Source of the DNA: Protula sp. h YS-2021
Lineage: Eukaryota > Annelida > Polychaeta > Sabellida > Serpulidae
Direction: 5' to 3'
Assembly (NCBI GenBank): GCA_949752745.1
Contig: OX457034.1
Span: 3,919,646-3,983,645 of the forward strand
DNA length: 64,000 nucleotides
Positions 15,187 through 42,767 of the stretch are shown piece by piece (position 1 is the first letter of the stretch; each line of letters begins with the position of its first letter). The notes beneath the pieces were generated by a model. The model had not been told where the DNA came from, did no database searches, and was given only the letters and a program-made list of their open reading frames with translations. The position numbers were made by a program, and so were the translations under genes.

Positions 15187-15192
15187 CTCAGA

Positions 15193-17055
15193 CGCGTTGA
15201 TTTCGGGTATATCAAGATCTGCCAGATGCTTCTATTGCTTTATGTCGCCACTGTTGGGCGCAGAACGGGCCGCAGTGGGAAGTTTGGTGACTGTCCACAC
15301 TCCTTTTAGGTGGACGGTGTCCTTCCCGTTAACAGATTGGACCTTTTGGACCTTTAAATCCACTTCAGAGCCGTTGTGTGAGCTGCCTCTCTGATCCAAA
15401 GTTGTAAGGGTAAATGATTTTGGCTTGCCCGCCAGTCCAAGCTCTGTGACCAGATTTTCATCGCAGAGGCTGACGTCGGATCCTCTATCCAGCAAGGCGT
15501 ATGTTGTTACTGACTTACCGTATGTCCCTTCGATACACACGGGCAATATCCTCTTAAATACCTTGCGGACGGGGCATGTTTCTGTGGAGAGACAAGTCAC
15601 AGTTGAAGGCTGCGCAGTCGGCACTGAAGGGTTAACATTTGCTGCAGAGGGCTGCACCGGAGCAGCAAGTTGCCGCTCAGGCGCATCCGAGGGGTGCTTA
15701 GGCTCTCGCGACGCGGCAGAGCTTGCAATGTGCAGCAGGGGATGATGCTTACGATCACACCCTGTCACAGTGCAAGATGCGTTTTTTCTACAATCTTTTG
15801 ATACATGTTTCCACTTTAAGCAATTGAAGCACAATCTTTCCCGTTTTACAAACTCTTTCCTTTCATCGATTTTCATGTCTTTGAATTTATGACACGCGGC
15901 CAAGTGCGCGCAGGCACCGCCGCAACACCGACAGTACCTAGGGGTGCTTGTTCCAGAACTCTCATTTTTGCTACTACTCAAATTTTTATCAGATCTTCGG
16001 ATTTCTACACTTTTGTGCTTGCCCGCTGTGGCTAACGTAGTACCACGTGACTTAGAACCTTTTGTTTTCACGACATCGGTTCCCTTTACCTTCATACTAC
16101 CTCGACCCCTGTCACCTTTCGCTTGTTTTGACTCATTTTCCATGTCTAGGCCAAACATGGAATTTGCCACACTGGCTCTCTCATTTACAAATTGAGACAA
16201 ATCTTTGAACACCACTGATCGACCAGATTCGACTATTTTGTGTGCCTTCTCAACCCACCTTGCCTTTATGTAACTTGGAAGGCGACCTGCTATTTTCCTA
16301 AGACTTTCAGAACTGTTAAGCTCACTAGTAAATCCTTATTGTGACAGAGTGATTTCGGCTCGAGTCAGTTCCAGAGAAAATCGCAACAACCCTTTTACGT
16401 CATTTGCTTTTATGGGTGAGCCGTTTACTAGCATGTCTGTATACGCTTGAGCCACCATGTGTGGCTTCCCATAACGTGACCTTAACAGTTCCTTGGCCCT
16501 TGAATACCCATCTTCCCCCAGCATGACACAGTCCTCAATTAATTCCTTGACCTCCCCTTGACAGTACTGGATCAAGTACCCTAACCGAGCTTTATTGTCA
16601 CTAACCTTTTGTTCAATGTTAATCTCAAAATTGTTAATAAATTTACTATAATCCAGAGAATGTCCTGAAAAGGAAAACAGTTCCGGTTTTGGGAGGTAAA
16701 ACCGCTCGCGTTAAACGTTCGCGAGCTGGTTTAACACATGTTCATCAGTTTTCGCGCCACTTTCGGCGCTGCCTGGTCGTTGCAGTTTCAACGCACCATC
16801 GCGTGGTACGCTCACGTGAGGATTCTGTTCGTCCGCCAGACTTCCGGTGCCCTGGGCTATAGCTCATGTCACATCCGCTGGTGCTGCCATATTCGGATTA
16901 CCCTGACCGATGGCAGACGGAGTCAAGGATCGCTCGTCACAGGCCTCCGCCCACTCGTTTTCTTCGATCGCCGCTTCAGCTACGTCATTTTGATGACGAA
17001 GTAACGTCTTTTTCCTCTCTACCTCGCGCTTTTGCCTTTCGATTTCACATTAAAC
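15193..17055 (-). pseudogene. gag: BEL/Pao gag and protease
   Basis: From right to left: a charged coiled-coil-like start (REVERKKTLLRHQN, about 17,000), a gag core of the DUF1759 type (FYLPKPELFSFSG near 16,690, then YLIQYCQGEVKELIED), and a Cys/His cluster (CRCCGGACAHLAAC, near 15,930). Next come a zinc knuckle, CFNCLKWKHVSKDC (about 15,830), and the A17-like protease with LLDRGSDVSLCDENLV (about 15,490). The protease triplet reads DRG instead of the usual DSG/DTG, which would inactivate it. In-frame stops interrupt at about 17,053, 16,868, 16,706 and 16,336, and a TAG separates it from RT at about 15,225. Confidence -1.
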
Positions 17056-18510: not shown

Positions 18511-18939
18511 AGGCTTGAAAGACAGGTTGTGTAAATCTTCGTTTACCTTTTGTCAAGTTTTTTACTTTTTCTGATTTAAAAGATTTAAACTATAAACCTT
18601 AGATGCCCAGTCGAGCCTATCTGAATCCCCCCTTCGACCAAAGAGTTTAATATGCTACGAATTTAGTCATATGAAAGGAGATCACGATTTGCAATGATCT
18701 GATGGGGAAAACAATGCAGGATGTGCCTTTATGTACTGATTATTTGTTATTATAAACATGGAAAATACTGAGTACTAGTAATGAACATCACTACAGTATA
18801 TAGTTATATATACTGCATGATAGCTAGATATATATTATCTGATAAGTCTAACTTTAGACGAAGTCCCGTGAGAGGGGGCTGACTTTGAGTATTATTTTGT
18901 ACCATGCGTGTTTTTGACATTTTAAAATGACCCTAAACG

Positions 18940-19095
18940 CGGATTTTTTATCAATATGTGCCTTTAATGATAAGTGCCAATGCAATATATTCGAGCATAT
19001 TTCAAATAAACTGAACAATTCATCTTTTGTGGTTTGCTTCAATAAGGATGTACGTTGCTTAACACTGCTACATGCTAATAAATGAAGAAATGGGG
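18940..19095 (-). pseudogene. Polinton small-gene fragment in array unit 1
   Basis: The minus-strand translation SLLKQTTKDELFSLFEIC matches SLLQQATKEELTSLFEIC of the Polinton gene at 52,068-52,395. Flanking nucleotides also match, for example TGCTAATAAATGAA against TGCGAACAAGTGAA. Only the middle of the gene is present. The inward end runs into the C-rich element, which makes the Gly/Pro-rich reading there spurious. Counterparts occur in all nine units at the same offset. Confidence -1.
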
Positions 19096-19099
19096 AACA

Positions 19100-20065
19100 G
19101 GCGGTCTCCCCCTGGCGCTTTCCCCCCGGCGGTTTCCCCCCTGGTGGTCTCCCCCCCCCAGGCGGTCTCTCCGCTGTCCTTCCCCCCCCCCCCCCCACGG
19201 CAGATTTTTGTTAAAACTTACATCAGCAAAACTTGTACATTTCACTCGTTTTTTTCCTTCTCTCCCTCAAACTTGCTTTCCTTATTGATGTGTGAAGACC
19301 AAAGGGTTTGATATGTTGATAAGTGATTGATATATTATGCTCAATGCATGCACAAGAATTGCAATTGTTTCTTAGCCATCACCGCCAGAGTAGGCTACTG
19401 ATGATGATGTTTTCCGGAGTAGTTTGGTTTATTTATGGATATCAGATTTGCGTCTGGAGAACGTAAATGGATGTATAAAAGCTCACCACAAAGTAGCCAA
19501 ATTATCACATCAAGATGGAATTCATTACGACTATACGAGGAAAGCAGAAATTGTCTTACACTGGGTCCTTGTATCTAAAGCAGAAGCATTTGGCAAGTGG
19601 TGCAATTTCATAAGAATGCCAAAAAAGAAGGGGTCAGGGAAAGAGAGATTTGACTGGTCATTGCAAAGCCAAAATTCAAGTGTAAATGGCGAGATTGTTA
19701 AACATACAAATGAGCACACTCATGTCCCAGACAGTGGCATCGCGTATAACGTAAAACTGTAAGGTGGTGCACACAGTAAAGCTGGTGATCTGTAAATTAA
19801 ATTTCGTGATCGCATTTGAAAGATCAGTTTACAGTAAGTGTTTAATTGTAATTTCGCAATTGGATTTTAAAGCAGATTATGTTCTAGTGATATTATGTAA
19901 AAGTAGATGAAAGGTGAGGTTGAAAATTGAAAAAGGAATGAAATGTACAAGTTTTGCTGATTTAAGGTTTACTAACTAAAAAAATCTGCCATGGGGGGGG
20001 GGGACGGGGGGAGTCAGCCTACGGGGGGAGATTGCCATGGTGGAGTTGGTAGGGGGGAGTCCGCC
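19100..20065 (+). mobile_element. 0.97-kb C-rich inverted-repeat element (unit 1)
   Basis: The outer ends are GGCGGTCTCCCCC (19,100) and the inverse GGGGGGAGTCCGCC (ending 20,065). An inner 55-60-bp inverted repeat pairs GGCAGATTTTTG ... TCAGCAAAACTTGTACATTT (19,199-19,245) with its complement at 19,936-19,992. Between outer and inner repeats lie iterated GGCGGTTTCCCCCC-like motifs. It sits exactly between two Polinton gene fragments that are adjacent in the complete Polinton, so it is an insertion, perhaps replacing about 90 bp. No clear target duplication is visible. The same element is at offset about 589 in every unit. Confidence -1.
19424..19762 (+). pseudogene. FLYWCH-like zinc-finger remnant in the nested element
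   Basis: An open stretch of 112 codons without a good ATG (it opens at TTG). It ends with VNGEIVKHTNEHTHVPDSG, the usual end of FLYWCH-type fingers, where HTH supplies the zinc histidines. In an overlapping frame just upstream, HCKAKIQV gives the expected Cys, so a small indel has split the finger. Such fingers are common in transposase-associated and Mod(mdg4)-type proteins. The 112-codon frame persists in units 1 and 3-8 and is truncated in units 2 and 9. Function unknown; FLYWCH assignment is moderate. Confidence -1.
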
Positions 20066-20122
20066 GTATATCACTTGGTAGAACTGCTGTGCGAATACGT
20101 AACTTATTTTCTGTCTTTGGTT

Positions 20123-20475
20123 TCAGATAAATAAATAACCATGAGGTTTGCTGGTAGTATCTTGATATGCCTCAATTAAAAACAGATTTCCCTGGATACA
20201 TTTGCCGAGCCAATGTACTGATCTGTTGACTATCTCTTGAATTTTAAAGAGAATAATGTAATGTATATTTAAACTAATATTACACATTTCCTTTCCATGG
20301 TGAAACAAATTGTTCACGATGAAAATAATGCTTAGACTTTTATGGCTGCTTCCAACACTAAACAGTCTGGTCATTCATCCCTATGACATTTGGTCACGAG
20401 ATCATCAATAATGAGTGAGTTATTCTGTTTTGGATTGAAACGCTTTTTCATATCCTCTGCAATGCCTTGAGAGGG
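20123..20475 (-). pseudogene. Polinton packaging-ATPase fragment (unit 1)
   Basis: The minus strand reads KRFNPKQNNSLIIDDLV, the Walker B region, near 20,440-20,390, then a stop in CHRDE*. After one frameshift it reads LFSVGSSHKSLSIIFIV and on to AYQDTTSKPHGYLFI. This matches the complete Polinton's ATPase (52,388-53,047; LFSVGSSHQNLSIIFIV). The Walker A half is absent, so no ATPase could be made. An 83-codon frame (20,123-20,374) is preserved in all nine units. Confidence -1.
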
Positions 20476-20690
20476 GGTCCTGACATGAAAAAATGATCAG
20501 AATTGTCTGAAACGTAAAACTATGCCAATATCTGATTTCTACCCCTAGGGGGTGGGGTTATAGATCCTGAAATGAAAAATGATCAGAATGGTTTGAAACG
20601 TAAAACTACGCTACATTCTGATTTTTGCCCTTAGGCGGGAGGATGGTCCTGAAATGAAAAATGATAAGAATGGTCCGGGGGGTGGTTAGG
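20476..20690. repeat. ~97-bp internal tandem repeat (unit 1)
   Basis: TCCTGAAATGAAAAATGATCAGAAT-like segments begin at about 20,478, 20,565 and 20,650, each followed by TGAAACGTAAAACTA and TCTGATTT. About 2.3 copies, present in every array unit. It begins where the ATPase homology stops. Confidence -1.
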
Positions 20691-20783
20691 TTGGTCAGTG
20701 AGACACTGGGGAGGAGGGGGCAGGTTGGTCGATCAATCAGACATTTCTCATTTCAGAAGTCTTCTCAGACGTAACATTTGAAC

Positions 20784-23057
20784 AGGCTTGAAAGATAGGT
20801 TGTGTAAATCTTCGTTTACCTTTTGTCAAGTTTTTTACTTTTTCTGATTTAAAAGATTTAAACTATAAACTTTAGATGCCCAGTCGAGCCTATCTGAATC
20901 CCCCCTTCGACCAAAGAGTTTAATATGCTACGAATTTAGTCATATGAAAGGAGATCACGATTTGCAATGATCTGATGGGGAAAACAATGCAGGATGTGCC
21001 TTTATTTACTGATTATTTGTTATTATAAACATGGAAAATACTGAGTACTAGTAATGAACATCACTACAGTATATAGTTATATATACTGCATGATAGCTAG
21101 ATATATATTATCTGATAAGTCTAACTTTAGACGAAGTCCCGTGAGAGGGGGCTGACTTTGAGTATTATTTTGTACCATGCGTGTTTTTGACATTTTAAAA
21201 TGACCCTAAACGCGGATTTTTTATCAATATGTGCCTTTAATGATAAGTGCCAATGCAATATATTCGAGCATATTTCAAATAAACTGAACAATTCATCTTT
21301 TGTGGTTTGCTTCAATAAGGATGTACGTTGCTTAACACTGCTACATGCTAATAAATGAAGAAATGGGGAACAGGCGGTCTCCCCCTGGCGCTTTCCCCCC
21401 GGCGGTTTCCCCCCTGGTGGTCTCCCCCCCCCCCCCAGGCGGTCTCCCCGCTGTCCTCCCCCCCCCCCCACGGCAGATTTTTGTTAAAACTTACATCAGC
21501 AAAACTTGTACATTTCACTCGTTTTTTTCCTTCTCTCCCTCAAACTTGCTTTCCTTATTGATGTGTGAAGACCAAAGGGTTTGATATATTGATAAGTGAT
21601 TGATATATTATGCTCAATGCATGCACAAGAATTGCAATTGTTTCTTAGCCATCACCGCCAGAGTAGGCTACTGATGATGATGTTTTCCGGAGTAGTTTGG
21701 TTTATTTATGGATATCAGATTTGCGTCTGGAGAACGTAAATGGATGTATAAAAGCTCACCACAAAGTAGCCAAATTATCACATCAAGATGGAATTCATTA
21801 CGACTATACGAGGAAAGCAGAAATTGTCTTACACTGGGTCCTTGTATCTAAAGCAGAAGCATTTGGCAAGTGGTGCAATTTCATAAGAATGCCAAAAAAA
21901 GAAGGGGTCAGGGAAAGAGAGATTTGACTGGTCATTGCAAAGCCAAAATTCAAGTGTAAATGGCGAGATTGTTAAACATACAAATGAGCACACTCATGTC
22001 CCAGACAGTGGCATCGCGTATAACGTAAAACTGTAAGGTGGTGCACACAGTAAAGCTGGTGATCTGTAAATTAAATTTCGTGATCGCATTTGAAAGATCA
22101 GTTTACAGTAAGTGTTTAATTGTAATTTCGCAATTGGATTTTAAAGCAGATTATGTTCTAGTGATATTATGTAAAAGTAGATGAAAGGTGAGGTTGAAAA
22201 TTGAAAAAGGAATGAAATGTACAAGTTTTGCTGATTTAAGTTTTACTAACTAAAAAAATCTGCCATGGGGGGGGGGGACGGGGGGAGTCAGCCTACGGGG
22301 GGAGATTGCCATGGTGGAGTTGGTAGAGGGGAGTCCGCCGTATATCACTTGGTAGAACTGCTGTGCGAATACGTAACTTATTTTCTGTCTTTGGTTTCAG
22401 ATAAATAAATAACCATGAGATTTGCTGGTAGTATCTTGATATGCCTCAATTAAAAACAGATTTCCCTGGATACATTTGCCGAGCCAATGTACTGATCTGT
22501 TGACTATCTCTTGAATTTTAAAGAGAATAATGTAATGTATATTTAAACTAATATTACACATTTCCTTTCCATGGTGAAACAAATTGGTCACGATGAAAAT
22601 AATGCTTAGACTTTTATGGCTGCTTCCAACACTAAACAGTCTGGTCATTCATCCCTATGACATTTGGTCACGAGATCATCAATAATGAGTGAGTTATTCT
22701 GTTTTGGATTGAAACGCTTTTCCATATCCTCTGCAATGCCTTGAGAGGGGGTCCTGACATGAAAAAATGATCAGAATTGTCTGAAACGTAAAACTATGCC
22801 AATATCTGATTTCTACCCCTAGGGGGTGGGGTTATAGATCCTGAAATGAAAAATGATCAGAATGGTTTGAAACGTAAAACTACGCTACAATCTGATTTTT
22901 GCCCTTAGGCGGGAGGATGGTCCTGAAATGAAAAATGATAAGAATGGTCCGGGGGGTGGTTAGGTTGGTCAGTGAGACACTGGGGAGGAGGGGGCAGGTT
23001 GGTCGATCAATCAGACATTTCTCATTTCAGAAGTCTTCTCAGACGTAACATTTGAAC
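20784..23057. repeat. Array unit 2
   Basis: 2274 bp. An extra A in the CCAAAAAAAG tract (about 21,893) shortens the plus-strand frame of the nested element. It has the GGTCACG variant in the ATPase fragment, shared with unit 3. Confidence -1.
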
Positions 23058-25333
23058 AGGCTTGAAAGATAGGTTGTGTAAATCTTCGTTTACCTTTTGT
23101 CAAGTTTTTTACTTTTTCTGATTTAAAAGATTTAAACTATAAACTTTAGATGCCCAGTCGAGCCTATCTGAATCCCCCCTTCGACCAAAGAGTTTAATAT
23201 GCTACGAATTTAGTCATATGAAAGGAGATCACGATTTGCAATGATCTGATGGGGAAAACAATGCAGGATGTGCCTTTATTTACTGATTATTTGTTATTAT
23301 AAACATGGAAAATACTGAGTACTAGTAATGAACATCACTACAGTATATAGTTATATATACTGCATGATAGCTAGATATATATTATCTGATAAGTCTAACT
23401 TTAGACGAAGTCCCGTGAGAGGGGGCTGACTTTGAGTATTATTTTGTACCATGCGTGTTTTTGACATTTTAAAATGACCCTAAACGCGGATTTTTTATCA
23501 ATATGTGCCTTTAATGATAAGTGCCAATGCAATATATTCGAGCATATTTCAAATAAACTGAACAATTCATCTTTTGTGGTTTGCTTCAATAAGGATGTAC
23601 GTTGCTTAACACTGCTACATGCTAATAAATGAAGAAATGGGGAACAGGCGGTCTCCCCCTGGCGCTTTCCCCCCGGCGGTTTCCCCCCTGGTGGTCTCCC
23701 CCCCCCCCAGGCGGTCTCCCCGCTGTCCTCCCCCCCCCCCCCCCCACGGCAGATTTTTGTTAAAACTTACATCAGCAAAACTTGTACATTTCACTCGTTT
23801 TTTTCCTTCTCTCCCTCAAACTTGCTTTCCTTATTGATGTGTGAAGACCAAAGGGTTTGATATATTGATAAGTGATTGATATATTATGCTCAATGCATGC
23901 ACAAGAATTGCAATTGTTTCTTAGCCATCACCGCCAGAGTAGGCTACTGATGATGATGTTTTCCGGAGTAGTTTGGTTTATTTATGGATATCAGATTTGC
24001 GTCTGGAGAACGTAAATGGATGTATAAAAGCTCACCACAAAGTAGCCAAATTATCACATCAAGATGGAATTCATTACGACTATACGAGGAAAGCAGAAAT
24101 TGTCTTACACTGGGTCCTTGTATCTAAAGCAGAAGCATTTGGCAAGTGGTGCAATTTCATAAGAATGCCAAAAAAGAAGGGGTCAGGGAAAGAGAGATTT
24201 GACTGGTCATTGCAAAGCCAAAATTCAAGTGTAAATGGCGAGATTGTTAAACATACAAATGAGCACACTCATGTCCCAGACAGTGGCATCGCGTATAACG
24301 TAAAACTGTAAGGTGGTGCACACAGTAAAGCTGGTGATCTGTAAATTAAATTTCGTGATCGCATTTGAAAGATCAGTTTACAGTAAGTGTTTAATTGTAA
24401 TTTCGCAATTGGATTTTAAAGCAGATTATGTTCTAGTGATATTATGTAAAAGTAGATGAAAGGTGAGGTTGAAAATTGAAAAAGGAATGAAATGTACAAG
24501 TTTTGCTGATTTAAGTTTTACTAACTAAAAAAATCTGCCATGGGGGGGGGGGGACGGGGGGAGTCAGCCTACGGGGGGAGATTGCCATGGTGGAGTTGGT
24601 AGGGGGGAGTCCGCCGTATATCACTTGGTAGAACTGCTGTGCGAATACGTAACTTATTTTCTGTCTTTGGTTTCAGATAAATAAATAACCATGAGGTTTG
24701 CTGGTAGTATCTTGATATGCCTCAATTAAAAACAGATTTCCCTGGATACATTTGCCGAGCCAATGTACTGATCTGTTGACTATCTCTTGAATTTTAAAGA
24801 GAATAATGTAATGTATATTTAAACTAATATTACACATTTCCTTTCCATGGTGAAACAAATTGGTCACGATGAAAATAATGCTTAGACTTTTATGGCTGCT
24901 TCCAACACTAAACAGTCTGGTCATTCATCCCTATGGCATTTGGTCACGAGATCATCAATAATGAGTGAGTTATTCTGTTTTGGATTGAAACGCTTTTTCA
25001 TATCCTCTGCAATGCCTTGAGAGGGGGTCCTGACATGAAAAAATGATCAGAATTGTCTGAAACGTAAAACTATGCCAATATCTGATTTCTACCCCTAGGG
25101 GGTGGGGTTATAGATCCTGAAATGAAAAATGATCAGAATGGTTTGAAACGTAAAACTACGCTACAATCTGATTTTTGCCCTTAGGCGGGAGGATGGTCCT
25201 GAAATGAAAAATGATAAGAATGGTCCGGGGGGTGGTTAGGTTGGTCAGTGAGACACTGGGGAGGAGGGGGCAGGTTGGTCGATCAATCAGACATTTCTCA
25301 TTTCAGAAGTCTTCTCAGACGTAACATTTGAAC
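23058..25333. repeat. Array unit 3
   Basis: 2276 bp. It shares GGTCACG with unit 2 and lacks the GGAGGACGG insertion. Confidence -1.
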
Positions 25334-27607
25334 AGGCTTGAAAGATAGGTTGTGTAAATCTTCGTTTACCTTTTGTCAAGTTTTTTACTTTTTCTGATTT
25401 AAAAGATTTAAACTATAAACTTTAGATGCCCAGTCGAGCCTATCTGAATCCCCCCTTCGACCAAAGAGTTTAATATGCTACGAATTTAGTCATATGAAAG
25501 GAGATCACGATTTGCAATGATCTGATGGGGAAAACAATGCAGGATGTGCCTTTATTTACTGATTATTTGTTATTATAAACATGGAAAATACTGAGTACTA
25601 GTAATGAACATCACTACAGTATATAGTTATATATACTGCATGATAGCTAGATATATATTATCTGATAAGTCTAACTTTAGACGAAGTCCCGTGAGAGGGG
25701 GCTGACTTTGAGTATTATTTTGTACCATGCGTGTTTTTGACATTTTAAAATGACCCTAAACGCGGATTTTTTATCAATATGTGCCTTTAATGATAAGTGC
25801 CAATGCAATATATTCGAGCATATTTCAAATAAACTGAACAATTCATCTTTTGTGGTTTGCTTCAATAAGGATGTACGTTGCTTAACACTGCTACATGCTA
25901 ATAAATGAAGAAATGGGGAACAGGCGGTCTCCCCCTGGCGCTTTCCCCCGGCGGTTTCCCCCCTGGTGGTCTCCCCCCCCCCAGGCGGTCTCCCCGCTGT
26001 CCTCCCCCCCCCCCCACGGCAGATTTTTGTTAAAACTTACATCAGCAAAACTTGTACATTTCACTCGTTTTTTTCCTTCTCTCCCTCAAACTTGCTTTCC
26101 TTATTGATGTGTGAAGACCAAAGGGTTTGATATATTGATAAGTGATTGATATATTATGCTCAATGCATGCACAAGAATTGCAATTGTTTCTTAGCCATCA
26201 CCGCCAGAGTAGGCTACTGATGATGATGTTTTCCGGAGTAGTTTGGTTTATTTATGGATATCAGATTTGCGTCTGGAGAACGTAAATGGATGTATAAAAG
26301 CTCACCACAAAGTAGCCAAATTATCACATCAAGATGGAATTCATTACGACTATACGAGGAAAGCAGAAATTGTCTTACACTGGGTCCTTGTATCTAAAGC
26401 AGAAGCATTTGGCAAGTGGTGCAATTTCATAAGAATGCCAAAAAAGAAGGGGTCAGGGAAAGAGAGATTTGACTGGTCATTGCAAAGCCAAAATTCAAGT
26501 GTAAATGGCGAGATTGTTAAACATACAAATGAGCATACTCATGTCCCAGACAGTGGCATCGCGTATAACGTAAAACTGTAAGGTGGTGCACACAGTAAAG
26601 CTGGTGATCTGTAAATTAAATTTCGTGATCGCATTTGAAAGATCAGTTTACAGTAAGTGTTTAATTGTAATTTCGCAATTGGATTTTAAAGCAGATTATG
26701 TTCTAGTGATATTATGTAAAAGTAGATGAAAGGTGAGGTTGAAAATTGAAAAAGGAATGAAATGTACAAGTTTTGCTGATTTAAGTTTTACTAACTAAAA
26801 AAATCTGCCATGGGGGGGGGGGGGAGGACGGGGGGAGTCAGCCTACGGGGGGAGATCGCCATGGTGGAGTTGGTAGGGGGGAGTCCGCCGTATATCACTT
26901 GGTAGAACTGCTGTGCGAATACGTAACTTATTTTCTGTCTTTGGTTTCAGATAAATAAATAACCATGAGGTTTGCTGGTAGTATCTTGATATGCCTCAAT
27001 TAAAAACAGATTTCCCTGGATACATTTGCCGAGCCAATGTACTGATCTGTTGACTATCTCTTGAATTTTAAAGAGAATAATGTAATGTATATTTAAACTA
27101 ATATTACACATTTCCTTTCCATGGTGAAACAAATTGTTCACGATGAAAATAATGCTTAGACTTTTATGGCTGCTTCCAACACTAAACAGTCTGGTCATTC
27201 ATCCCTATGACATTTGGTCACGAGATCATCAATAATGAGTGAGTTATTCTGTTTTGGATTGAAACGCTTTTTCATATCCTCTGCAATGCCTTGAGAGGGG
27301 GTCCTGACATGAAAAAATGATCAGAATTGTCTGAAACGTAAAACTATGCCAATATCTGATTTCTACCCCTAGGGGGTGGGGTTATAGATCCTGAAATGAA
27401 AAATGATCAGAATGGTTTGAAACGTAAAACTACGCTACAATCTGATTTTTGCCCTTAGGCGGGAGGATGGTCCTGAAATGAAAAATGATAAGAATGGTCC
27501 GGGGGGTGGTTAGGTTGGTCAGTGAGACACTGGGGAGGAGGGGGCAGGTTGGTCGATCAATCAGACATTTCTCATTTCAGAAGTCTTCTCAGACGTAACA
27601 TTTGAAC
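25334..27607. repeat. Array unit 4
   Basis: 2274 bp. First copy with GGAGGACGG and GATCGCC in the G-rich end of the nested element. It keeps TATAAAC in the spacer. Confidence -1.
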
Positions 27608-29881
27608 AGGCTTGAAAGATAGGTTGTGTAAATCTTCGTTTACCTTTTGTCAAGTTTTTTACTTTTTCTGATTTAAAAGATTTAAACTATAAACTTTAGA
27701 TGCCCAGTCGAGCCTATCTGAATCCCCCCTTCGACCAAAGAGTTTAATATGCTACGAATTTAGTCATATGAAAGGAGATCACGATTTGCAATGATCTGAT
27801 GGGGAAAACAATGCAGGATGTGCCTTTATTTACTGATTATTTGTTATTATAGACATGGAAAATACTGAGTACTAGTAATGAACATCACTACAGTATATAG
27901 TTATATATACTGCATGATAGCTAGATATATATTATCTGATAAGTCTAACTTTAGACGAAGTCCCGTGAGAGGGGGCTGACTTTGAGTATTATTTTGTACC
28001 ATGCGTGTTTTTGACATTTTAAAATGACCCTAAACGCGGATTTTTATCAATATGTGCCTTTAATGATAAGTGCCAATGCAATATATTCGAGCATATTTCA
28101 AATAAACTGAACAATTCATCTTTTGTGGTTTGCTTCAATAAGGATGTACGTTGCTTAACACTGCTACATGCTAATAAATGAAGAAATGGGGAACAGGCGG
28201 TCTCCCCCTGGCGCTTTCCCCCCGGCGGTTTCCCCCCTGGTGGTCTCCCCCCCCCCAGGCGGTCTCCCCGCTGTCCTCCCCCCCCCCCCCACGGCAGATT
28301 TTTGTTAAAACTTACATCAGCAAAACTTGTACATTTCACTCGTTTTTTTCCTTCTCTCCCTCAAACTTGCTTTCCTTATTGATGTGTGAAGACCAAAGGG
28401 TTTGATATATTGATAAGTGATTGATATATTATGCTCAATGCATGCACAAGAATTGCAATTGTTTCTTAGCCATCACCGCCAGAGTAGGCTACTGATGATG
28501 ATGTTTTCCGGAGTAGTTTGGTTTATTTATGGATATCAGATTTGCGTCTGGAGAACGTAAATGGATGTATAAAAGCTCACCACAAAGTAGCCAAATTATC
28601 ACATCAAGATGGAATTCATTACGACTATACGAGGAAAGCAGAAATTGTCTTACACTGGGTCCTTGTATCTAAAGCAGAAGCATTTGGCAAGTGGTGCAAT
28701 TTCATAAGAATGCCAAAAAAGAAGGGGTCAGGGAAAGAGAGATTTGACTGGTCATTGCAAAGCCAAAATTCAAGTGTAAATGGCGAGATTGTTAAACATA
28801 CAAATGAGCACACTCATGTCCCAGACAGTGGCATCGCGTATAACGTAAAACTGTAAGGTGGTGCACACAGTAAAGCTGGTGATCTGTAAATTAAATTTCG
28901 TGATCGCATTTGAAAGATCAGTTTACAGTAAGTGTTTAATTGTAATTTCGCAATTGGATTTTAAAGCAGATTATGTTCTAGTGATATTATGTAAAAGTAG
29001 ATGAAAGGTGAGGTTGAAAATTGAAAAAGGAATGAAATGTACAAGTTTTGCTGATTTAAGTTTTACTAACTAAAAAAATCTGCCATGGGGGGGGGGGGAG
29101 GACGGGGGGAGTCAGCCTACGGGGGGAGATTGCCATGGTGGAGTTGGTAGGGGGGAGTCCGCCGTATATCACTTGGTAGAACTGCTGTGCGAATACGTAA
29201 CTTATTTTCTGTCTTTGGTTTCAGATAAATAAATAACCATGAGGTTTGCTGGTAGTATCTTGATATGCCTCAATTAAAAACAGATTTCCCTGGATACATT
29301 TGCCGAGCCAATGTACTGATCTGTTGACTATCTCTTGAATTTTAAAGAGAATAATGTAATGTATATTTAAACTAATATTACACATTTCCTTTCCATGGTG
29401 AAACAAATTGTTCACGATGAAAATAATGCTTAGACTTTTATGGCTGCTTCCAACACTAAACAGTCTGGTCATTCATCCCTATGACATTTGGTCACGAGAT
29501 CATCAATAATGAGTGAGTTATTCTGTTTTGGATTGAAACGCTTTTTCATATCCTCTGCAATGCCTTGAGAGGGGGTCCTGACATGAAAAAATGATCAGAA
29601 TTGTCTGAAACGTAAAACTATGCCAATATCTGATTTCTACCCCTAGGGGGTGGGGTTATAGATCCTGAAATGAAAAATGATCAGAATGGTTTGAAACGTA
29701 AAACTACGCTACAATCTGATTTTTGCCCTTAGGCGGGAGGATGGTCCTGAAATGAAAAATGATAAGAATGGTCCGGGGGGTGGTTAGGTTGGTCAGTGAG
29801 ACACTGGGGAGGAGGGGGCAGGTTGGTCGATCAATCAGACATTTCTCATTTCAGAAGTCTTCTCAGACGTAACATTTGAAC
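27608..29881. repeat. Array unit 5
   Basis: 2274 bp. TATAGAC spacer variant. One T is missing from the T6 tract near 28,040, which breaks the minus-strand gene fragment there. Confidence -1.
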
Positions 29882-32153
29882 AGGCTTGAAAGATAGGTTG
29901 TGTAAATCTTCGTTTACCTTTTGTCAAGTTTTTTACTTTTTCTGATTTAAAAGATTTAAACTATAAACTTTAGATGCCCAGTCGAGCCTATCTGAATCCC
30001 CCCTTCGACCAAAGAGTTTAATATGCTACGAATTTAGTCATATGAAAGGAGATCACGATTTGCAATGATCTGATGGGGAAAACAATGCAGGATGTGCCTT
30101 TATTTACTGATTATTTGTTATTATAGACATGGAAAATACTGAGTACTAGTAATGAACATCACTACAGTATATAGTTATATATACTGCATGATAGCTAGAT
30201 ATATATTATCTGATAAGTCTAACTTTAGACGAAGTCCCGTGAGAGGGGGCTGACTTTGAGTATTATTTTGTACCATGCGTGTTTTTGACATTTTAAAATG
30301 ACCCTAAACGCGGATTTTTTATCAATATGTGCCTTTAATGATAAGTGCCAATGCAATATATTCGAGCATATTTCAAATAAACTGAACAATTCATCTTTTG
30401 TGGTTTGCTTCAATAAGGATGTACGTTGCTTAACACTGCTACATGCTAATAAATGAAGAAATGGGGAACAGGCGGTCTCCCCCTGGCGCTTTCCCCCGGC
30501 GGTTTCCCCCCTGGTGGTCTCCCCCCCCACAGGCGGTCTCCCCGCTGTCCTCCCCCCCCCCCCACGGCAGATTTTTGTTAAAACTTACATCAGCAAAACT
30601 TGTACATTTCACTCGTTTTTTTCCTTCTCTCCCTCAAACTTCCTTTCCTTATTGATGTGTGAAGACCAAAGGGTTTGATATATTGATAAGTGATTGATAT
30701 ATTATGCTCAATGCATGCACAAGAATTGCAATTGTTTCTTAGCCATCACCGCCAGAGTAGGCTACTGATGATGATGTTTTCCGGAGTAGTTTGGTTTATT
30801 TATGGATATCAGATTTGCGTCTGGAGAACGTAAATGGATGTATAAAAGCTCACCACAAAGTAGCCAAATTATCACATCAAGATGGAATTCATTACGACTA
30901 TACGAGAAAAGCAGAAATTGTCTTACACTGGGTCCTTGTATCTAAAGCAGAAGCATTTGGCAAGTGGTGCAATTTCATAAGAATGCCAAAAAAGAAGGGG
31001 TCAGGGAAAGAGAGATTTGACTGGTCATTGCAAAGCCAAAATTCAAGTGTAAATGGCGAGATTGTTAAACATACAAATGAGCACACTCATGTCCCAGACA
31101 GTGGCATCGCGTATAACGTAAAACTGTAAGGTGGTGCACACAGTAAAGCTGGTGATCTGTAAATTAAATTTCGTGATCGCATTTGAAAGATCAGTTTACA
31201 GTAAGTGTTTAATTGTAATTTCGCAATTGGATTTTAAAGCAGATTATGTTCTAGTGATATTATGTAAAAGTAGATGAAAGGTGAGGTTGAAAATTGAAAA
31301 AGGAATGAAATGTACAAGTTTTGCTGATTTAAGTTTTACTAACTAAAAAAATCTGCCATGGGGGGGGGGGGGGACGGGGGGAGTCAGCCTACGGGGGGAG
31401 ATTGCCATGGTGGAGTTGGTAGGGGGGAGTCCGTCGTATATCACTTGGTAGAACTGCTGTGCGAATACGTAACTTATTTTCTGTCTTTGGTTTCAGATAA
31501 ATAAATAACCATGAGGTTTGCTGGTAGTATCTTGATATGCCTCAATTAAAAACAGATTTCCCTGGATACATTTGCCGAGCCAATGTACTGATCTGTTGAC
31601 TATCTCTTGAATTTTAAAGAGAATAATGTAATGTATATTTAAACTAATATTACACATTTCCTTTCCATGGTGAAACAAATTGTTCACGATGAAAATAATG
31701 CTTAGACTTTTATGGCTGCTTCCAACACTAAACAGTCTGGTCATTCATCCCTATGACATTTGGTCACGAGATCATCAATAATGAGTGAGTTATTCTGTTT
31801 TGGATTGAAACGCTTTTTCATATCCTCTGCAATGCCTTGAGAGGGGGTCCTGACATGAAAAAATGATCAGAATTGTCTGAAACGTAAAACTATGCCAATA
31901 TCTGATTTCTACCCCTAGGGGGTGGGGTTATAGATCCTGAAATGAAAAATGATCAGAATGGTTTGAAACGTAAAACTACGCTACAATCTGATTTTTGCCC
32001 TTAGGCGGGAGGATGGTCCTGAAATGAAAAATGATAAGAATGGTCCGGGGGGTGGTTAGGTTGGTCAGTGAGACACTGGGGAGGAGGGGGCAGGTTGGTC
32101 GATCAATCAGACATTTCTCATTTCAGAAGTCTTCTCAGACGTAACATTTGAAC
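29882..32153. repeat. Array unit 6
   Basis: 2272 bp. TATAGAC variant but without GGAGGACGG. Private GTCGTATATC near 31,432 and CTTCCTTTCC near 30,640. Confidence -1.
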
Positions 32154-34421
32154 AGGCTTGAAAGATAGGTTGTGTAAATCTTCGTTTACCTTTTGTCAAG
32201 TTTTTTACTTTTTCTGATTTAAAAGATTTAAACTATAAACTTTAGATGCCCAGTCGAGCCTATCTGAATCCCCCCTTCGACCAAAGAGTTTAATATGCTA
32301 CGAATTTAGTCATATGAAAGGAGATCACGATTTGCAATGATCTGATGGGGAAAACAATGCAGGATGTGCCTTTATTTACTGATTATTTGTTATTATAGAC
32401 ATGGAAAATACTGAGTACTAGTAATGAACATCACTACAGTATATAGTTATATATACTGCATGATAGCTAGATATATATTATCTGATAAGTCTAACTTTAG
32501 ACGAAGTCCCGTGAGAGGGGGCTGACTTTGAGTATTATTTTGTACCATGCGTGTTTTCGACATTTTAAAATGACCCTAAACGCGGATTTTTTATCAATAT
32601 GTGCCTTTAATGATAAGTGCCAATGCAATATATTCGAGCATATTTCAAATAAACTGAACAATTCATCTTTTGTGGTTTGCTTCAATAAGGATGTACGTTG
32701 CTTAACACTGCTACATGCTAATAAATGAAGAAATGGGGAACAGGCGGTCTCCCCCTGGCGCTTTCCCCCCGGCGGTTTCCCCCCTGGTGGTCTCCCCCCC
32801 CCCAGGCGGTCTCCCCGCTGTCCCCCCCCCCCACGGCAGATTTTTGTTAAAACTTACATCAGCAAAACTTGTACATTTCACTCGTTTTTTTCCTTCTCTC
32901 CCTCAAACTTGCTTTCCTTATTGATGTGTGAAGACCAAAGGGTTTGATATATTGATAAGTGATTGATATATTATGCTCAATGCATGCACAAGAATTGCAA
33001 TTGTTTCTTAGCCATCACCGCCAGAGTAGGCTACTGATGATGATGTTTTCCGGAGTAGTTTGGTTTATTTATGGATATCAGATTTGCGTCTGGAGAACGT
33101 AAATGGATGTATAAAAGCTCACCACAAAGTAGCCAAATTATCACATCAAGATGGAATTCATTACGACTATACGAGGAAAGCAGAAATTGTCTTACACTGG
33201 GTCCTTGTATCTAAAGCAGAAGCATTTGGCAAGTGGTGCAATTTCATAAGAATGCCAAAAAAGAAGGGGTCAGGGAAAGAGAGATTTGACTGGTCATTGC
33301 AAAGCCAAAATTCAAGTGTAAATGGCGAGATTGTTAAACATACAAATGAGCACACTCATGTCCCAGACAGTGGCATCGCGTATAACGTAAAACTGTAAGG
33401 TGGTGCACACAGTAAAGCTGGTGATCTGTAAATTAAATTTCGTGATCGCATTTGAAAGATCAGTTTACAGTAAGTGTTTAATTGTAATTTCGCAATTGGA
33501 TTTTAAAGCAGATTATGTTCTAGTGATATTATGTAAAAGTAGATGAAAGGTGAGGTTGAAAATTGAAAAAGGAATGAAATGTACAAGTTTTGCTGATTTA
33601 AGTTTTACTAACTAAAAAAATCTGCCATGGGGGGGGGGAGGACGGGGGGAGTCAGCCTACGGGGGGAGATCGCGATGGTGGAGTTGGTAGGGGGGAGTCC
33701 GCCGTATATCACTTGGTAGAACTGCTGTGCGAATACGTAACTTATTTTCTGTCTTTGGTTTCAGATAAATAAATAACCATGAGGTTTGCTGGTAGTATCT
33801 TGATATGCCTCAATTAAAAACAGATTTCCCTGGATACATTTGCCGAGCCAATGTACTGATCTGTTGACTATCTCTTGAATTTTAAAGAGAATAATGTAAT
33901 GTATATTTAAACTAATATTACACATTTCCTTTCCATGGTGAAACAAATTGTTCACGATGAAAATAATGCTTAGACTTTTATGGCTGCTTCCAACACTAAA
34001 CAGTCTGGTCATTCATCCCTATGACATTTGGTCACGAGATCATCAATAATGAGTGAGTTATTCTGTTTTGGATTGAAACGCTTTTTCATATCCTCTGCAA
34101 TGCCTTGAGAGGGGGTCCTGACATGAAAAAATGATCAGAATTGTCTGAAACGTAAAACTATGCCAATATCTGATTTCTACCCCTAGGGGGTGGGGTTATA
34201 GATCCTGAAATGAAAAATGATCAGAATGGTTTGAAACGTAAAACTACGCTACAATCTGATTTTTGCCCTTAGGCGGGAGGATGGTCCTGAAATGAAAAAT
34301 GATAAGAATGGTCCGGGGGGTGGTTAGGTTGGTCAGTGAGACACTGGGGAGGAGGGGGCAGGTTGGTCGATCAATCAGACATTTCTCATTTCAGAAGTCT
34401 TCTCAGACGTAACATTTGAAC
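32154..34421. repeat. Array unit 7
   Basis: 2268 bp, the shortest. GTTTTCGAC variant (shared with unit 9) and GATCGCG (shared with unit 8). Confidence -1.
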
Positions 34422-36699
34422 AGGCTTGAAAGATAGGTTGTGTAAATCTTCGTTTACCTTTTGTCAAGTTTTTTACTTTTTCTGATTTAAAAGATTTAAA
34501 CTATAAACTTTAGATGCCCAGTCGAGCCTATCTGAATCCCCCCTTCGACCAAAGAGTTTAATATGCTACGAATTTAGTCATATGAAAGGAGATCACGATT
34601 TGCAATGATCTGATGGGGAAAACAATGCAGGATGTGCCTTTATTTACTGATTATTTGTTATTATAAACATGGAAAATACTGAGTACTAGTAATGAACATC
34701 ACTACAGTATATAGTTATATATACTGCATGATAGCTAGATATATATTATCTGATAAGTCTAACTTTAGACGAAGTCCCGTGAGAGGGGGCTGACTTTGAG
34801 TATTATTTTTTACCATGCGTGTTTTTGACATTTTAAAATGACCCTAAACGCGGATTTTTTATCAATATGTGCCTTTAATGATAAGTGCCAATGCAATATA
34901 TTCGAGCATATTTCAAATAAACTGAACAATTCATCTTTTGTGGTTTGCTTCAATAAGGATGTACGTTGCTTAACACTGCTACATGCTAATAAATGAAGAA
35001 ATGGGGAACAGGCGGTCTCCCCCTGGCGCTTTCCCCCCGGCGGTTTCCCCCCTGGTGGTCTCCCCCCCCCCCCCAGCCGGTCTCCCCGCTGTCCTCCCCC
35101 CCCCCCCACGGCAGATTTTTGTTAAAACTTACATCAGCAAAACTTGTACATTTCACTCGTTTTTTTCCTTCTCTCCCTCAAACTTGCTTTCCTTATTGAT
35201 GTGTGAAGACCAAAGGGTTTGATATATTGATAAGTGATTGATATATTATGCTCAATGCATGCACAAGAATTGCAATTGTTTCTTAGCCATCACCGCCAGA
35301 GTAGGCTACTGATGATGATGTTTTCCGGAGTAGTTTGGTTTATTTATGGATATCAGATTTGCGTCTGGAGAACGTAAATGGATGTATAAAAGCTCACCAC
35401 AAAGTAGCCAAATTATCACATCAAGATGGAATTCATTACGACTATACGAGGAAAGCAGAAATTGTCTTACACTGGGTCCTTGTATCTAAAGCAGAAGCAT
35501 TTGGCAAGTGGTGCAATTTCATAAGAATGCCAAAAAAGAAGGGGTCAGGGAAAGAGAGATTTGACTGGTCATTGCAAAGCCAAAATTCAAGTGTAAATGG
35601 CGAGATTGTTAAACATACAAATGAGCACACTCATGTCCCAGACAGTGGCATCGCGTATAACGTAAAACTGTAAGGTGGTGCACACAGTAAAGCTGGTGAT
35701 CTGTAAATTAAATTTCGTGATCGCATTTGAAAGATCAGTTTACAGTAAGTGTTTAATTGTAATTTCGCAATTGGATTTTAAAGCAGATTATGTTCTAGTG
35801 ATATTATGTAAAAGTAGATGAAAGGTGAGGTTGAAAATTGAAAAAGGAATGAAATGTACAAGTTTTGCTGATTTAAGTTTTACTAACTAAAAAAATCTGC
35901 CATGGGGGGGGGGGGGAGGACGGGGGGAGTCAGCCTACGGGGGGAGATCGCGATGGTGGAGTTGGTAGGGGGGAGTCCGCCGTATATCACTTGGTAGAAC
36001 TGCTGTGCGAATACGTAACTTATTTTCTGTCTTTGGTTTCAGATAAATAAATAACCATGAGGTTTGCTGGTAGTATCTTGATATGCCTCAATTAAAAACA
36101 GATTTCCCTGGATACATTTGCCGAGCCAATGTACTGATCTGTTGACTATCTCTTGAATTTTAAAGAGAATAATGTAATGTATATTTAAACTAATATTACA
36201 CATTTCCTTTCCATGGTGAAACAAATTGTTCACGATGAAAATAATGCTTAGACTTTTATGGCTGCTTCCAACACTAAACAGTCTGGTCATTCATCCCTAT
36301 GACATTTGGTCACGAGATCATCAATAATGAGTGAGTTATTCTGTTTTGGATTGAAACGCTTTTTCATATCCTCTGCAATGCCTTGAGAGGGGGTCCTGAC
36401 ATGAAAAAATGATCAGAATTGTCTGAAACGTAAAACTATGCCAATATCTGATTTCTACCCCTAGGGGATGGGGTTATAGATCCTGAAATGAAAAATGATC
36501 AGAATGGTTTGAAACGTAAAACTACGCTACAATCTGATTTTTGCCCTTAGGCGGGAGGATGGTCCTGAAATGAAAAATGATAAGAATGGTCCGGGGGGTG
36601 GTTAGGTTGGTCAGTGAGACACTGGGGAGGAGGGGGCAGGTTGGTCGATCAATCAGACATTTCTCATTTCAGAAGTCTTCTCAGACGTAACATTTGAAC
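34422..36699. repeat. Array unit 8
   Basis: 2278 bp, the longest. It reverts to TATAAAC and GTTTTTGAC while sharing GATCGCG with unit 7. Private CCCCAGCCGG. Confidence -1.
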
Positions 36700-38970
36700 A
36701 GGCTTGAAAGATAGGTTGTGTAAATCTTCGTTTACCTTTTGTCAAGTTTTTTACTTTTTCTGATTTAAAAGATTTAAACTATAAACTTTAGATGCCCAGT
36801 CGAGCCTATCTGAATCCCCCCTTCGACCAAAGAGTTTAATATGCTACGAATTTAGTCATATGAAAGGAGATCACGATTTGCAATGATCTGATGGGGAAAA
36901 CAATGCAGGATGTGCCTTTATTTACTGATTATTTGTTATTATAGACATGGAAAATACTGAGTACTAGTAATGAACATCACTACAGTATATAGTTATATAT
37001 ACTGCATGATAGCTAGATATATATTATCTGATAAGTCTAACTTTAGACGAAGTCCCGTGAGAGGGGGCTGACTTTGAGTATTATTTTGTACCATGCGTGT
37101 TTTCGACATTTTAAAATGACCCTAAACGCGGATTTTTTATCAATATGTGCCTTTAATGATAAGTGCCAATGCAATATATTCGAGCATATTTCAAATAAAC
37201 TGAACAATTCATCTTTTGTGGTTTGCTTCAATAAGGATGTACGTTGCTTAACACTGCTACATGCTAATAAATGAAGAAATGGGGAACAGGCGGTCTCCCC
37301 CTGGCGCTTTCCCCCCGGCGGTTTCCCCCCTGGTGGTCTCCCCCCCCCCCAGGCGGTCTCCCCGCTGTCCTCCCCCCCCCACGGCAGATTTTTGTTAAAA
37401 CTTACATCAGCAAAACTTGTACATTTCACTCGTTTTTTTCCTTCTCTCCCTCAAACTTGCTTTCCTTATTGATGTGTGAAGACCAAAGGGTTTGATATAT
37501 TGATAAGTGATTGATATATTATGCTCAATGCATGCACAAGAATTGCAATTGTTTCTTAGCCATCACCGCCAGAGTAGGCTACTGATGATGATGTTTTCCG
37601 GAGTAGTTTGGTTTATTTATGGATATCAGATTTGCGTCTGGAGAACGTAAATGGATGTATAAAAGCTCACCACAAAGTAGCCAAATTATCACATCAAGAT
37701 GGAATTCATTACGACTATACGAGGAAAGCAGAAATTGTCTTACACTGGGTCCTTGTATCTAAAGCAGAAGCATTTGGCAAGTGGTGCAATTTTATAAGAA
37801 TGCCAAAAAGAAGGGGTCAGGGAAAGAGAGATTTGACTGGTCATTGCAAAGCCAAAATTCAAGTGTAAATGGCGAGATTGTTAAACATACAAATGAGCAC
37901 ACTCATGTCCCAGACAGTGGCATCGCGTATAACGTAAAACTGTAAGGTGGTGCACACAGTAAAGCTGGTGATCTGTAAATTAAATTTCGTGATCGCATTT
38001 GAAAGATCAGTTTACAGTAAGTGTTTAATTGTAATTTCGCAATTGGATTTTAAAGCAGATTATGTTCTAGTGATATTATGTAAAAGTAGATGAAAGGTGA
38101 GGTTGAAAATTGAAAAAGGAATGAAATGTACAAGTTTTGCTGATTTAAGTTTTACTAACTAAAAAAATCTGCCATGGGGGGGGGGGGAGGACGGGGGGAA
38201 TCAGCCTACGGGGGGAGATCGCCATGGTGGAGTTGGTAGGGGGGAGTCCGCCGTATATCACTTGGTAGAACTGCTGTGCGAATACGTAACTTATTTTCTG
38301 TCTTTGGTTTCAGATAAATAAATAACCATGAGGTTTGCTGGTAGTATCTTGATATGCCTCAATTAAAAACAGATTTCCCTGGATACATTTGCCGAGCCAA
38401 TGTACTGATCTGTTGACTATCTCTTGAATTTTAAAGAGAATAATGTAATGTATATTTAAACTAATATTACACATTTCCTTTCCATGGTGAAACAAATTGT
38501 TCACGATGAAAATAATGCTTAGACTTTTATGGCTGCTTCCAACACTAAACAGTCTGGTCATTCATCCCTATGACATTTGGTCACGAGATCATCAATAATG
38601 AGTGAGTTATTCTGTTTTGGATTGAAACGCTTTTTCATATCCTCTGCAATGCCTTGAGAGGGGGTCCTGACATGAAAAAATGATCAGAATTGTCTGAAAC
38701 GTAAAACTATGCCAATATCTGATTTCTACCCCTAGGGGGTGGGGTTATAGATCCTGAAATGAAAAATGATCAGAATGGTTTGAAACGTAAAACTACGCTA
38801 CAATCTGATTTTTGCCCTTAGGCGGGAGGATGGTCCTGAAATGAAAAATGATAAGAATGGTCCGGGGGGTGGTTAGGTTGGTCAGTGAGACACTGGGGAG
38901 GAGGGGGCAGGTTGGTCGATCAATCAGACATTTCTCATTTCAGAAGTCTTCTCAGACGTAACATTTGAAC
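36700..38970. repeat. Array unit 9
   Basis: 2271 bp. GTTTTCGAC and TATAGAC as in unit 7. One A is missing in the CCAAAAAGAAG tract (about 37,806), shifting the nested-element frame. The array ends within it at about 38,970. Confidence -1.
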
Positions 38971-40979
38971 AGTTATCTTCTTACAAAAGGTCTCTTAAAG
39001 GAAAATCTTTTTCAACATAGTTCAAGATTTTGCTCCCGTCAAAAAAGTACGGCCAGTAAGTCCAAAACGGAATTTTTTTACCCTTATGGTGGACCCACCG
39101 CCTAGAAATCTCATGGGACTTCTAAACCGGCCAGAAATCTCATGGGACTTCTAGACAGATGGACATGTCCTCCATACATTTATACCAATGGTGTCCAGAA
39201 ATGCCCTTTATACTCTACTCTCGACGCAGACCGCGTCTCACCAACAAAATTACCCCCTTTCTCCGCGTGTTTTTTTTTGGACACGCATGGTAGCATACCT
39301 GCTGCCCAGTAGCCACCCCGACCCTACCCGCGGGGGAGTCATGTGTACTTGTTCCTACAGTATAAAGTAAAAAAAGTACCAAAACATTCGTCGTAATTCG
39401 ATCATTTATTCTGTCTTTAATATTATGTGTAGTAAAATTCAAGACAAGTGTTATTGTCTGAAAATGTTTGGGATTAGTACAGTTCCCCTAGATCGGTTGG
39501 TAAGTATACATGCCCTAGGGAATACTTGCTCTAGAATTATGCCACCCTGTAACATGTTCACAAATGTCGCTATGGCGTCATTTTGGCTATTTTTGGTACT
39601 GTCGCTTTGGCGATGTTTTCCGGTTCAATTTCCCCAAGTCGAAACATTGCGTTTTATGAACAAGTGACGTCAAGAACGCGTGTGCGAGCAAGAAAATTGT
39701 TCTAACCACGCCATTTAGCGGCCCCAAGACGGGTCACAACCTGTTTGGTTGGGTGTGCCTACTGAGAACAGACACTATCGCTTTAATTCGAGGTAGTGGC
39801 GTGGCTTATTAAGTGATAACGAAGAAACTGATTTTAACAACGCCGTTTCTCGGTAAATTTTTGCGTTGTCGAAACAACGTCTCTTTCAGGTCGCTTTAAC
39901 GACATCAGTTAACGACATTGCGACAAGAAATCCTGAATTCAGGGCGACGGCATTTGCAAGTTGCCCCTGGCGTACAGCGCTGTTATCATCAGATAGTGCT
40001 GCGGGACAAATGCCTCCGGCCCAGAATGCGCCCATTTACTATACATTTCTTCACAAAAGCTCAGTTTCTGCAAAATGAGTAGGGAGGGCAAGTGGGCCTG
40101 GGGCTGTTCTTGTATGTGGAGTACGAAACCCCATGGGGAGCATTTGACCTTTCTAACGATGGCTGCTCAGTGGTGGGTTTTAAAAAAAGTAAGTATGGTC
40201 AGCAGGGAGCATAATTAGTAGCTGCGGACGAGCACAGCATTTTTACTAATTATTTTTTATTTATTTATTTTTTTTTTTGGCACTGAAAATTTTAAATTTT
40301 TCTATAATGAAACGACTTCTTTCCAGTATACTACTCGTTCATTGATACTCGATGCGTTTTTGTTGCAGGTATCTGCTGCAGATAAGCTTTTTTGTGATAT
40401 CTTGTAAATATGGCTAGCAGGATGGGCGTACGTCGTAAGCAGCTGCTGCTGGGGACGCTCTCATGAATAATCCGCAGCAAGAACCTCTCCTCTCCCGCCC
40501 CCTCCTCCGCACACAAGAGAAAAAATAGTCAAAATTGGGTGCAGGTATATGTATCTGCAAGGTACTGCATGCAGTATCTTTCACAAATTGTGTTCAGACA
40601 CTTTTGAGTATATTAAACGTTACTTTTTGCAGCAATTTCGAGTTTCAAGGATAAACACGAACTGGTTCGAACAAATGATTACGCTTATTGTGTTTCTGTA
40701 CGAACAATATTATCGAAAAGTGTGAAATAAAATGATAAATATCACATAGTCATTCTCATGTTATTCCCTTGGTGAGAAGGGTTCATTTGAGCAATTAACA
40801 GGGGACGACGCCTCAAGACTACAAGCATCTTGGCGGAGGTTGTTAACGAGGTCATAATCGACTCATTACAGAAATAAGAGTTTGCTGCCTGGGTGTGATC
40901 AGAGGGTAATGATACACATTTCGGTCCACTATTCAATCCATTCCACACCAGGCAAGAGCGAGATTGCATGCACGAGTCT
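38971..40979. other. No gene seen
   Basis: Unique-looking DNA right of the array. AGAAATCTCATGGGACTTCTA is duplicated at about 39,104 and 39,130. A T-rich run lies at about 40,250-40,280. Short ORFs here lack family features. Confidence -1.
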
Positions 40980-41790: not shown

Positions 41791-42009
41791 GCACGCATCC
41801 GGGTCCGATACTCAATTCAGTTCGGGCCTGGTCCGGGCCAAACTGCATGCACACATCCTGACCCGGGAGGCAATCCAGTCCGCTCCTGATGATCAGATTG
41901 CATCCATACATTCTGACCAGGCAATCCAGTCCGCTCCTGGTTGCCATATTGCTTGCAGACATCCTGACCCGGGAGGTAGTCCAGTCCGCTCCTGATGGCC
42001 AGATTGCAT
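41788..42009. repeat. ~55-bp minisatellite, left of the Polinton
   Basis: Units of 51-56 bp (about 41,788, 41,844, 41,899, 41,950) contain CATCCTGACCCGGGAGG and CAATCCAGTCCGCTCCTG, and later units end AGATTGCAT. The run is cut at TTGCAT by the Polinton and resumes in the same orientation at 57,644. Confidence -1.
42004..42009. other. Target-site duplication, left (TTGCAT)
   Basis: TTGCAT lies directly before the first base of the Polinton repeat and again directly after its last base (57,644-57,649). Six-bp duplications are characteristic of Polinton integration. Confidence -1.
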
Positions 42010-42712
42010 AGTAGTAGGAAAAGGGGGGGTTCCAGCACAGACCCCCCAGGACATACTATGTACCGACCCCCCCCCCCCCACCCCACCTAGGCGAGCAACA
42101 TTTTGTCAAGTCAGCTGAAAACAAGAGCTGTTTGGCGAGGTCTGAGTGGTATATAAGGGATGAGCACACCTCACTCCCCAACAACAACAGTGACAGCCAT
42201 ATCGGTAAGTGGTTATTTGCACAAGTGGTTGTAAGCATTATTGGAAACTTTGTAAACAAAAAGTGGAAAAACTGGAACAACTTTCGTTGTGCTTGACCGA
42301 TTTGTATGGAAATTTCACTGTTTGATTCAGTTTTATGTAAACTTTTGTTATAAAGTGATCATGGGCTAGTTGCGCAGCTGGCTGTATGCATATTTGTAGC
42401 ATGCCGCCATTTTAACTTAAAACTAGGATAGCTTTTGTTATACTTGACCGATTTACATAAAAATTTCACCATTTGATTCAGTTTTATGTAAAGTTTTGTT
42501 ATAAAATAGTCATAGGCTAGTTGCGCAGCTGGCTGTATGCATATTTGTAGCATGCCGCCATTTTAACTTAAAACTAGGATAACTTTTGTTATACTTGACC
42601 GATTTACATGAAAATTTCGCCATTTGATTCAGTTTACAGTAATCCTGTGTTATTTCGCGGATAAATACCATTTGGCGGATGAATACTATTTGACTTCATC
42701 GCTAGATGTCTC
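42010..42712 (+). repeat. Polinton left terminal inverted repeat
   Basis: Pairs with 56,985-57,643. Shared landmarks from the outside: the AGTAGTAGG end, the ACATACTATGTACCGACC box, CCTAGGCGAGCAACATTTTG, a TATATAAGGGATGAGC promoter, ATCGGTAAGTGG, CGCAGCTGGCTGTATGCAT and TTTCGCGGAT. It carries one more copy of a 151-bp internal repeat than the right side (CTTGACCG at 42,292, 42,443 and 42,594). Confidence -1.
42150..42210 (+). promoter_or_regulatory. Terminal-repeat TATA box and splice donor (left)
   Basis: TATATAAG at 42,150-42,157, then 48 bp to ATCG|GTAAGT (GT at 42,205-42,206), a consensus 5' splice site. A possible acceptor (TTCACCTCATTTCAG) ends near 43,008, just before the first ATG at 43,037. 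Both signals are conserved in the right repeat. Use as a leader exon is inferred. Confidence -1.
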
Positions 42713-42767
42713 TGTTATGCATCAATTTTTAACAAATTTTTGGTAAGTGACACATCATATACCATCT

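Follow-up and report, generated by a model that had tools for sequence, protein, structure and literature searches.

Satellites containing Polinton sequence have already been described in two animals. In Crassostrea gigas, the tables of PMC8268682 give CgiSat52 as a satellite with a 1656-bp monomer annotated as DNA/Polinton, confined to a single chromosome, where one assembly has 17 monomers and the other 6. In the migratory locust, LmiSat34-299 is reported, in the passage devoted to it, as a tandem satellite homologous to Polinton coding sequence (PMC4935994). The preliminary description of the DNA studied here considered the conversion of Polinton DNA into a tandem array to be unusual; satellites of this kind are nevertheless in print, as described in those parts of the two papers.

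The nearest in kind to the array reported here is CgiSat52, as a long Polinton-annotated monomer on one chromosome, where the likeness is drawn from its table description (PMC8268682). LmiSat34-299 resembles the array in its homology to Polinton coding sequence, but its monomer is 299 bp long by name, and the passage describing it mentions no chimeric structure (PMC4935994). The present array is an addition to these two published Polinton-containing tandem arrays, and its nested element, described below, is its own detail.

More generally, satellites can arise when part of a transposable element (TE) is duplicated and then amplified through unequal exchange, as presented in the relevant sections of two reviews (PMC12628747, PMC9659126), and these are the features that TE-derived satellite DNA would share with the array. 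The words Polinton and Maverick have no occurrences in the main text of either review. Polinton-like sequences adjoin satellite arrays in part of a paper on kissing bugs, and a Polinton-like cluster is listed among CenH3-linked sequences in a section of a Tribolium study (PMC7598501). In passages of two crayfish papers (PMC13130569, PMC7859515) and one on chicken (PMC4992247), no Polinton-derived satellite was found.

A tandem array of nine near-identical units

The window (the whole stretch of 64,000 bp of Protula sp. DNA analysed here) contains a direct head-to-tail tandem array at 18511–38972, made up of nine units of 2268–2278 bp each, in agreement with the nine tandem units of about 2.27 kb claimed earlier. 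All are on the plus strand: unit 1 at 18511–20783 (2273 bp), unit 2 at 20784–23057 (2274 bp), unit 3 at 23058–25333 (2276 bp), unit 4 at 25334–27607 (2274 bp), unit 5 at 27608–29881 (2274 bp), unit 6 at 29882–32153 (2272 bp), unit 7 at 32154–34421 (2268 bp), unit 8 at 34422–36699 (2278 bp) and unit 9 at 36700–38972 (2273 bp, including a 2-bp AG overlap at its end). The array comprises a whole number of units, the copy number being that of the assembly. Its nine direct units are head-to-tail repeats of the kind that characterises satellite DNA, and they are also near-identical, homogenised monomers, with a mean pairwise difference of 6.94 SNPs (0.31%), again as in the assembly.

Alignment of the units gave 2285 columns, 53 of them variable: 26 are gap-free substitutions and 27 contain gaps, which lie mainly in homopolymer runs, apart from two that represent the AG end of unit 9. 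Gaps of this kind can be produced by long-read error, as would be the case if the array were an artefact in which one or a few copies had been multiplied by the assembler. We regard such an artefact as extremely improbable, in view of the 26 gap-free substitution columns, the private SNPs found in seven of the nine units, and the variants common to some adjacent units; private and neighbour-shared SNPs together are not expected from a simple duplicated-read artefact. The private SNPs in units 1–9 number 7, 3, 1, 1, 0, 4, 0, 3 and 2, respectively, so that unit 1, at the edge of the array, is the most diverged copy, with 7 of the 21. Adjacent units resemble each other more closely than random ordering would predict: the SNP differences sum to 46, with p approximately 0.012 by permutation of 20,000 orders, a modest result that depends on five informative columns.

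The left edge of the array reads CACCA/AGGCTTG, the inner junctions GAAC/AG/GCTTG, and the right edge GAACAG/TTATC, where slashes mark the boundaries. The edges and inner junctions have AG alone in common, which constitutes a 2-bp microhomology, and a search for a target duplication in the bases flanking the array found none. Whole-unit arrays are the expected product of in-place duplication followed by unequal exchange, and the whole-number copies, the 2-bp microhomology junction and the lack of a target duplication here are consistent with that origin. In work from 2018, McGurk and Barbash are said to have described arrays that begin with double insertion of TEs and grow by unequal exchange. 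In those arrays the unit is reportedly an entire TE bounded by its own termini, whereas the unit ends here match no TE end that we found.

The array could alternatively be one member of a genome-wide satellite family, with the unit present at many loci and spread by circles or by transposition. TE-linked satellites are described as spread by mobile elements in parts of the oyster study (PMC8268682), and the unit might be dispersed by relatives of the inverted-repeat element that it contains. We nevertheless consider this unlikely, because insertion of a rolled-out circle would less readily give whole-number copies and edges having no more than two bases in common with the junctions.

Contents of the unit

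Two stretches of the unit consensus match a Polinton located elsewhere in the window, at 42010–57643 (the local Polinton). Consensus positions 454–580 (127 bp) match its small gene at 52238–52364, with 69.3% identity, 54.5 bits and E = 8e-9; in unit 1 this fragment is at 18964–19090 on the minus strand, its coordinates there being calculated by offset from the consensus. Positions 1557–1959 (403 bp; 20066–20468 on the minus strand in unit 1) match the packaging ATPase at 52462–52875, with 74.3% identity, 260 bits and E = 1e-70. Sixty shuffled units, a simple control in which two-base blocks were moved, reached at most 34.6 bits against the local Polinton, below both real matches. Both matches are plus/plus, which bears out the proposal that fragments of the ATPase (from Walker B onward) and of the small gene are present in their native order and orientation. 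The remainder of the unit has other contents. Positions 1–453 gave no match, 590–1556 form an inverted-repeat element, 1967–2165 are an 86-bp minisatellite of 2.4 copies lying where the ATPase fragment is cut off (20478–20675 on the plus strand in unit 1), and no match was found beyond 2165.

The inverted-repeat element, which was absent from the preliminary description, separates the two Polinton fragments and makes up 42% of the unit (approximately 966 bp; 19100–20065 in unit 1, with outer ends placed by eye from the tips, GGCGG(T/A)CTCCCCC). Its inner arms are 83% alike (consensus 640–740 versus 1417–1522), and in unit 1 the cores of the inverted repeat lie at 19224–19244 (plus) and 19939–19959 (minus). 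In the local Polinton, the corresponding interval between the two matches is 97 bp long. Inspection of the sequence around the element by eye revealed no target duplication, and the 21-bp core had no relatives among viral contigs. FLYWCH domains are linked to MULE elements, and such an identity for the inner element is suggestive only: PF04500 gave E = 0.0049 and 17.4 bits against a cut-off of 23.6, in a frame written with X at its stops, while the 122-residue open frame of the element itself gave nothing.

Recognisable Polinton DNA amounts to approximately 530 of 2274 bp (23%), and this homology to Polinton coding sequence is what characterises TE-derived satellites of the Polinton type. The earlier designation of the array as a satellite built from Polinton DNA is consequently right in part: the repeats are tandem and include Polinton DNA, but about 77% of the unit is not recognisably Polinton, the 966-bp element outweighs the Polinton share, and the array is known here from one locus. 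The ninefold repetition of pieces of Polinton genes, with every copy in the same orientation, might suggest a source of small RNAs or a replication or packaging decoy directed against Polintons. Such a role is barely credible, as the 530 bp that are Polinton-like are 26–31% diverged from the local Polinton, making them a poor guide for small RNAs against that copy, and nothing in the unit resembles the terminal repeats of the local Polinton beyond chance-level matches of 14–19 bp. Of the roles suggested earlier (selfish satellite, piRNA-like source and decoy), none is favoured by anything observed.

The gene traces within the unit are broken or truncated. The ATPase fragment runs from Walker B to near the C-terminus in pieces that sit in different frames. 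Its homology starts at residue 50 of the homologue or later in all 3213 matches to the array, so that the Walker A end is absent; the stretch LIIDDL, which we take to be Walker B, is present, as stated earlier. What is left of the small gene is truncated and lies within an open frame of 103–135 residues that is found in all nine units and continues into the inverted-repeat element; a methionine is absent from every one of these frames. The 122-residue open frame of the inner element (19394–19762 in unit 1) is kept in seven of the nine units, being 86 and 96 residues long in units 2 and 9, and a homologous-protein search found no relatives of it. We think that none of these traces makes a working protein, although the persistence of the methionine-free frame in all nine units speaks against this view; the open frames as such may still code.

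A Pfam scan of 42 translated pieces of at least 50 residues, 30 from the flanks and 12 from unit 1, gave a best E of only 0.012; these are 42 of the 51 pieces listed, the nine omitted including 19394–19762, which was scanned separately. An array of RNA genes (5S, snRNA or tRNA) was also considered and rejected, since no Rfam family matched the window at its gathering score and no tRNA was found there.

The local Polinton and its relation to the array

The local Polinton at 42010–57643 is full-length and gene-broken. It has long inverted terminal repeats, AG...CT ends and a 6-bp target-site duplication, TTGCAT (42004–42009 on the left and 57644–57649 on the right, read by eye), and its insertion interrupts a short 55-bp repeat array, with copies on either side. 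It carries the polB, integrase, ATPase and protease genes that, together with these ends, distinguish a Polinton/Maverick, several of them broken. The protease (adenovirus-type) and the ATPase score above the Pfam cut-off, and the integrase (rve, E = 1.7e-5) below it. The polB has many relatives, against which it shows stops and frame changes; the first six named are cnidarian or mollusc, with 57–59% identity, and others reach up to 76%. The integrase is seemingly split over two frames, 53346–53726 and 53701–54171, as judged by eye. The genes at 52.07–53.05 kb, previously called complete, are not: the packaging ATPase (52427–53047, minus strand) is open over 52604–53047 and has a stop at 52604, beyond which the homology continues in another frame, and the small-gene frame (52068–52430, minus strand, 120 residues) contains no methionine. 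With these defects, this Polinton looks dead as assembled.

Neither the ATPase nor an alignment of 15 homologues found relatives among viral contigs, and a PHROGs search gave nothing useful. Several minus-strand frames at 54201–56717, between the integrase and the right Polinton end, are alike by eye (for example 54530–54826, 55329–55637 and 56313–56717), and perhaps represent a duplicated accessory gene family.

We considered the local Polinton as the parent of the array and found that it is likely not the source. On the longest clean piece of the unit, of 44 residues, it has 35 identities and ranks 96th of 121, while the best, P0121, P0134 and P0142, have 40 each. On a 32-residue piece it ranks 10th of 121, with 21 identities against 22 for the best. 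The set of 121 consists of the local copy and the best 120 of the 597 homologues that the local ATPase retrieved; selecting them in this way favours kin of the local copy. The nucleotide identity of 74% likewise argues against recent descent from it. The local Polinton is therefore probably a bystander, a conclusion drawn from short protein pieces that provide evidence rather than proof.

Nor does the unit appear to be a mobile Polinton/Maverick in its own right: there is no 6-bp duplication of a target at the array edges, and the only inverted repeats found within the unit belong to the inner element and are not those at the termini of a Polinton. The possibility that the array lies inside a larger Polinton was likewise not supported. 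Among the matches listed, translated matches in the flanks were weak and either short or of low complexity, except for the 55-bp repeat adjoining the ends of the local Polinton. Comparison of the flanks with the local Polinton genes gave no nucleotide match and no persuasive translated match, and 240 homologues of polB and the ATPase, searched at E = 0.001, matched only within the array and 42010–57643. An in-place origin might have left more of the Polinton in the flanks, and the lack of any such trace in these searches counts against it; under that origin, the remnant must have been small beforehand.

Other repeats occur in the window. Several minus-strand frames at 11784–16710 are the remains of a BEL/Pao-type retrotransposon (Peptidase_A17, DUF5641, DUF1759 and Integrase_H2C2). 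The remains of an LTR retrotransposon, with RNase H and integrase matches, are at 4822–9513, and have direct repeats of about 150 bp at each end that are 94% alike and are probably LTRs. Two more tandem arrays lie at 59875–61092 (37 bp, 32.9 copies) and 62318–64000 (50 bp, 33.4 copies, continuing to the last position of the window), and the region that holds them is repeat-rich.

Origin and meaning of the array

We propose, with a probability of roughly 80%, that a chimeric scrap of DNA was duplicated in place and then expanded by unequal exchange to nine units, with no useful protein and no function. The starting material would have been a Polinton scrap, already dead, consisting of part of the small gene and the ATPase from Walker B onward. 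The 966-bp inverted-repeat element would have interrupted this scrap, on either side of which lay other DNA in which no genes are recognised. A single duplication in place, through the 2-bp microhomology junction, would then have produced two identical copies, between which unequal crossing-over generated nine whole units; continuing exchange would have held the units nearly identical. We infer the order of these events, the unequal exchange and the lack of function from the structure described above. It appears to be a commonplace case of repeats arising locally, and gives no indication of a role.

A broader idea places a signal in the end of Polintons containing the ATPase and small gene: a replication start, packaging signal or fragile site there would recurrently yield arrays in unrelated animals, with CgiSat52 and LmiSat34 as independent cases. 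We think this very unlikely; if it were true that the same part of Polintons is amplified in several animals, it would point to a signal in that part. The array itself illustrates one step in how a satellite arises: it is homogeneous and clean-edged, is composed of a Polinton scrap with a nested inverted-repeat element, and has a clean junction from which the initial event can be inferred.
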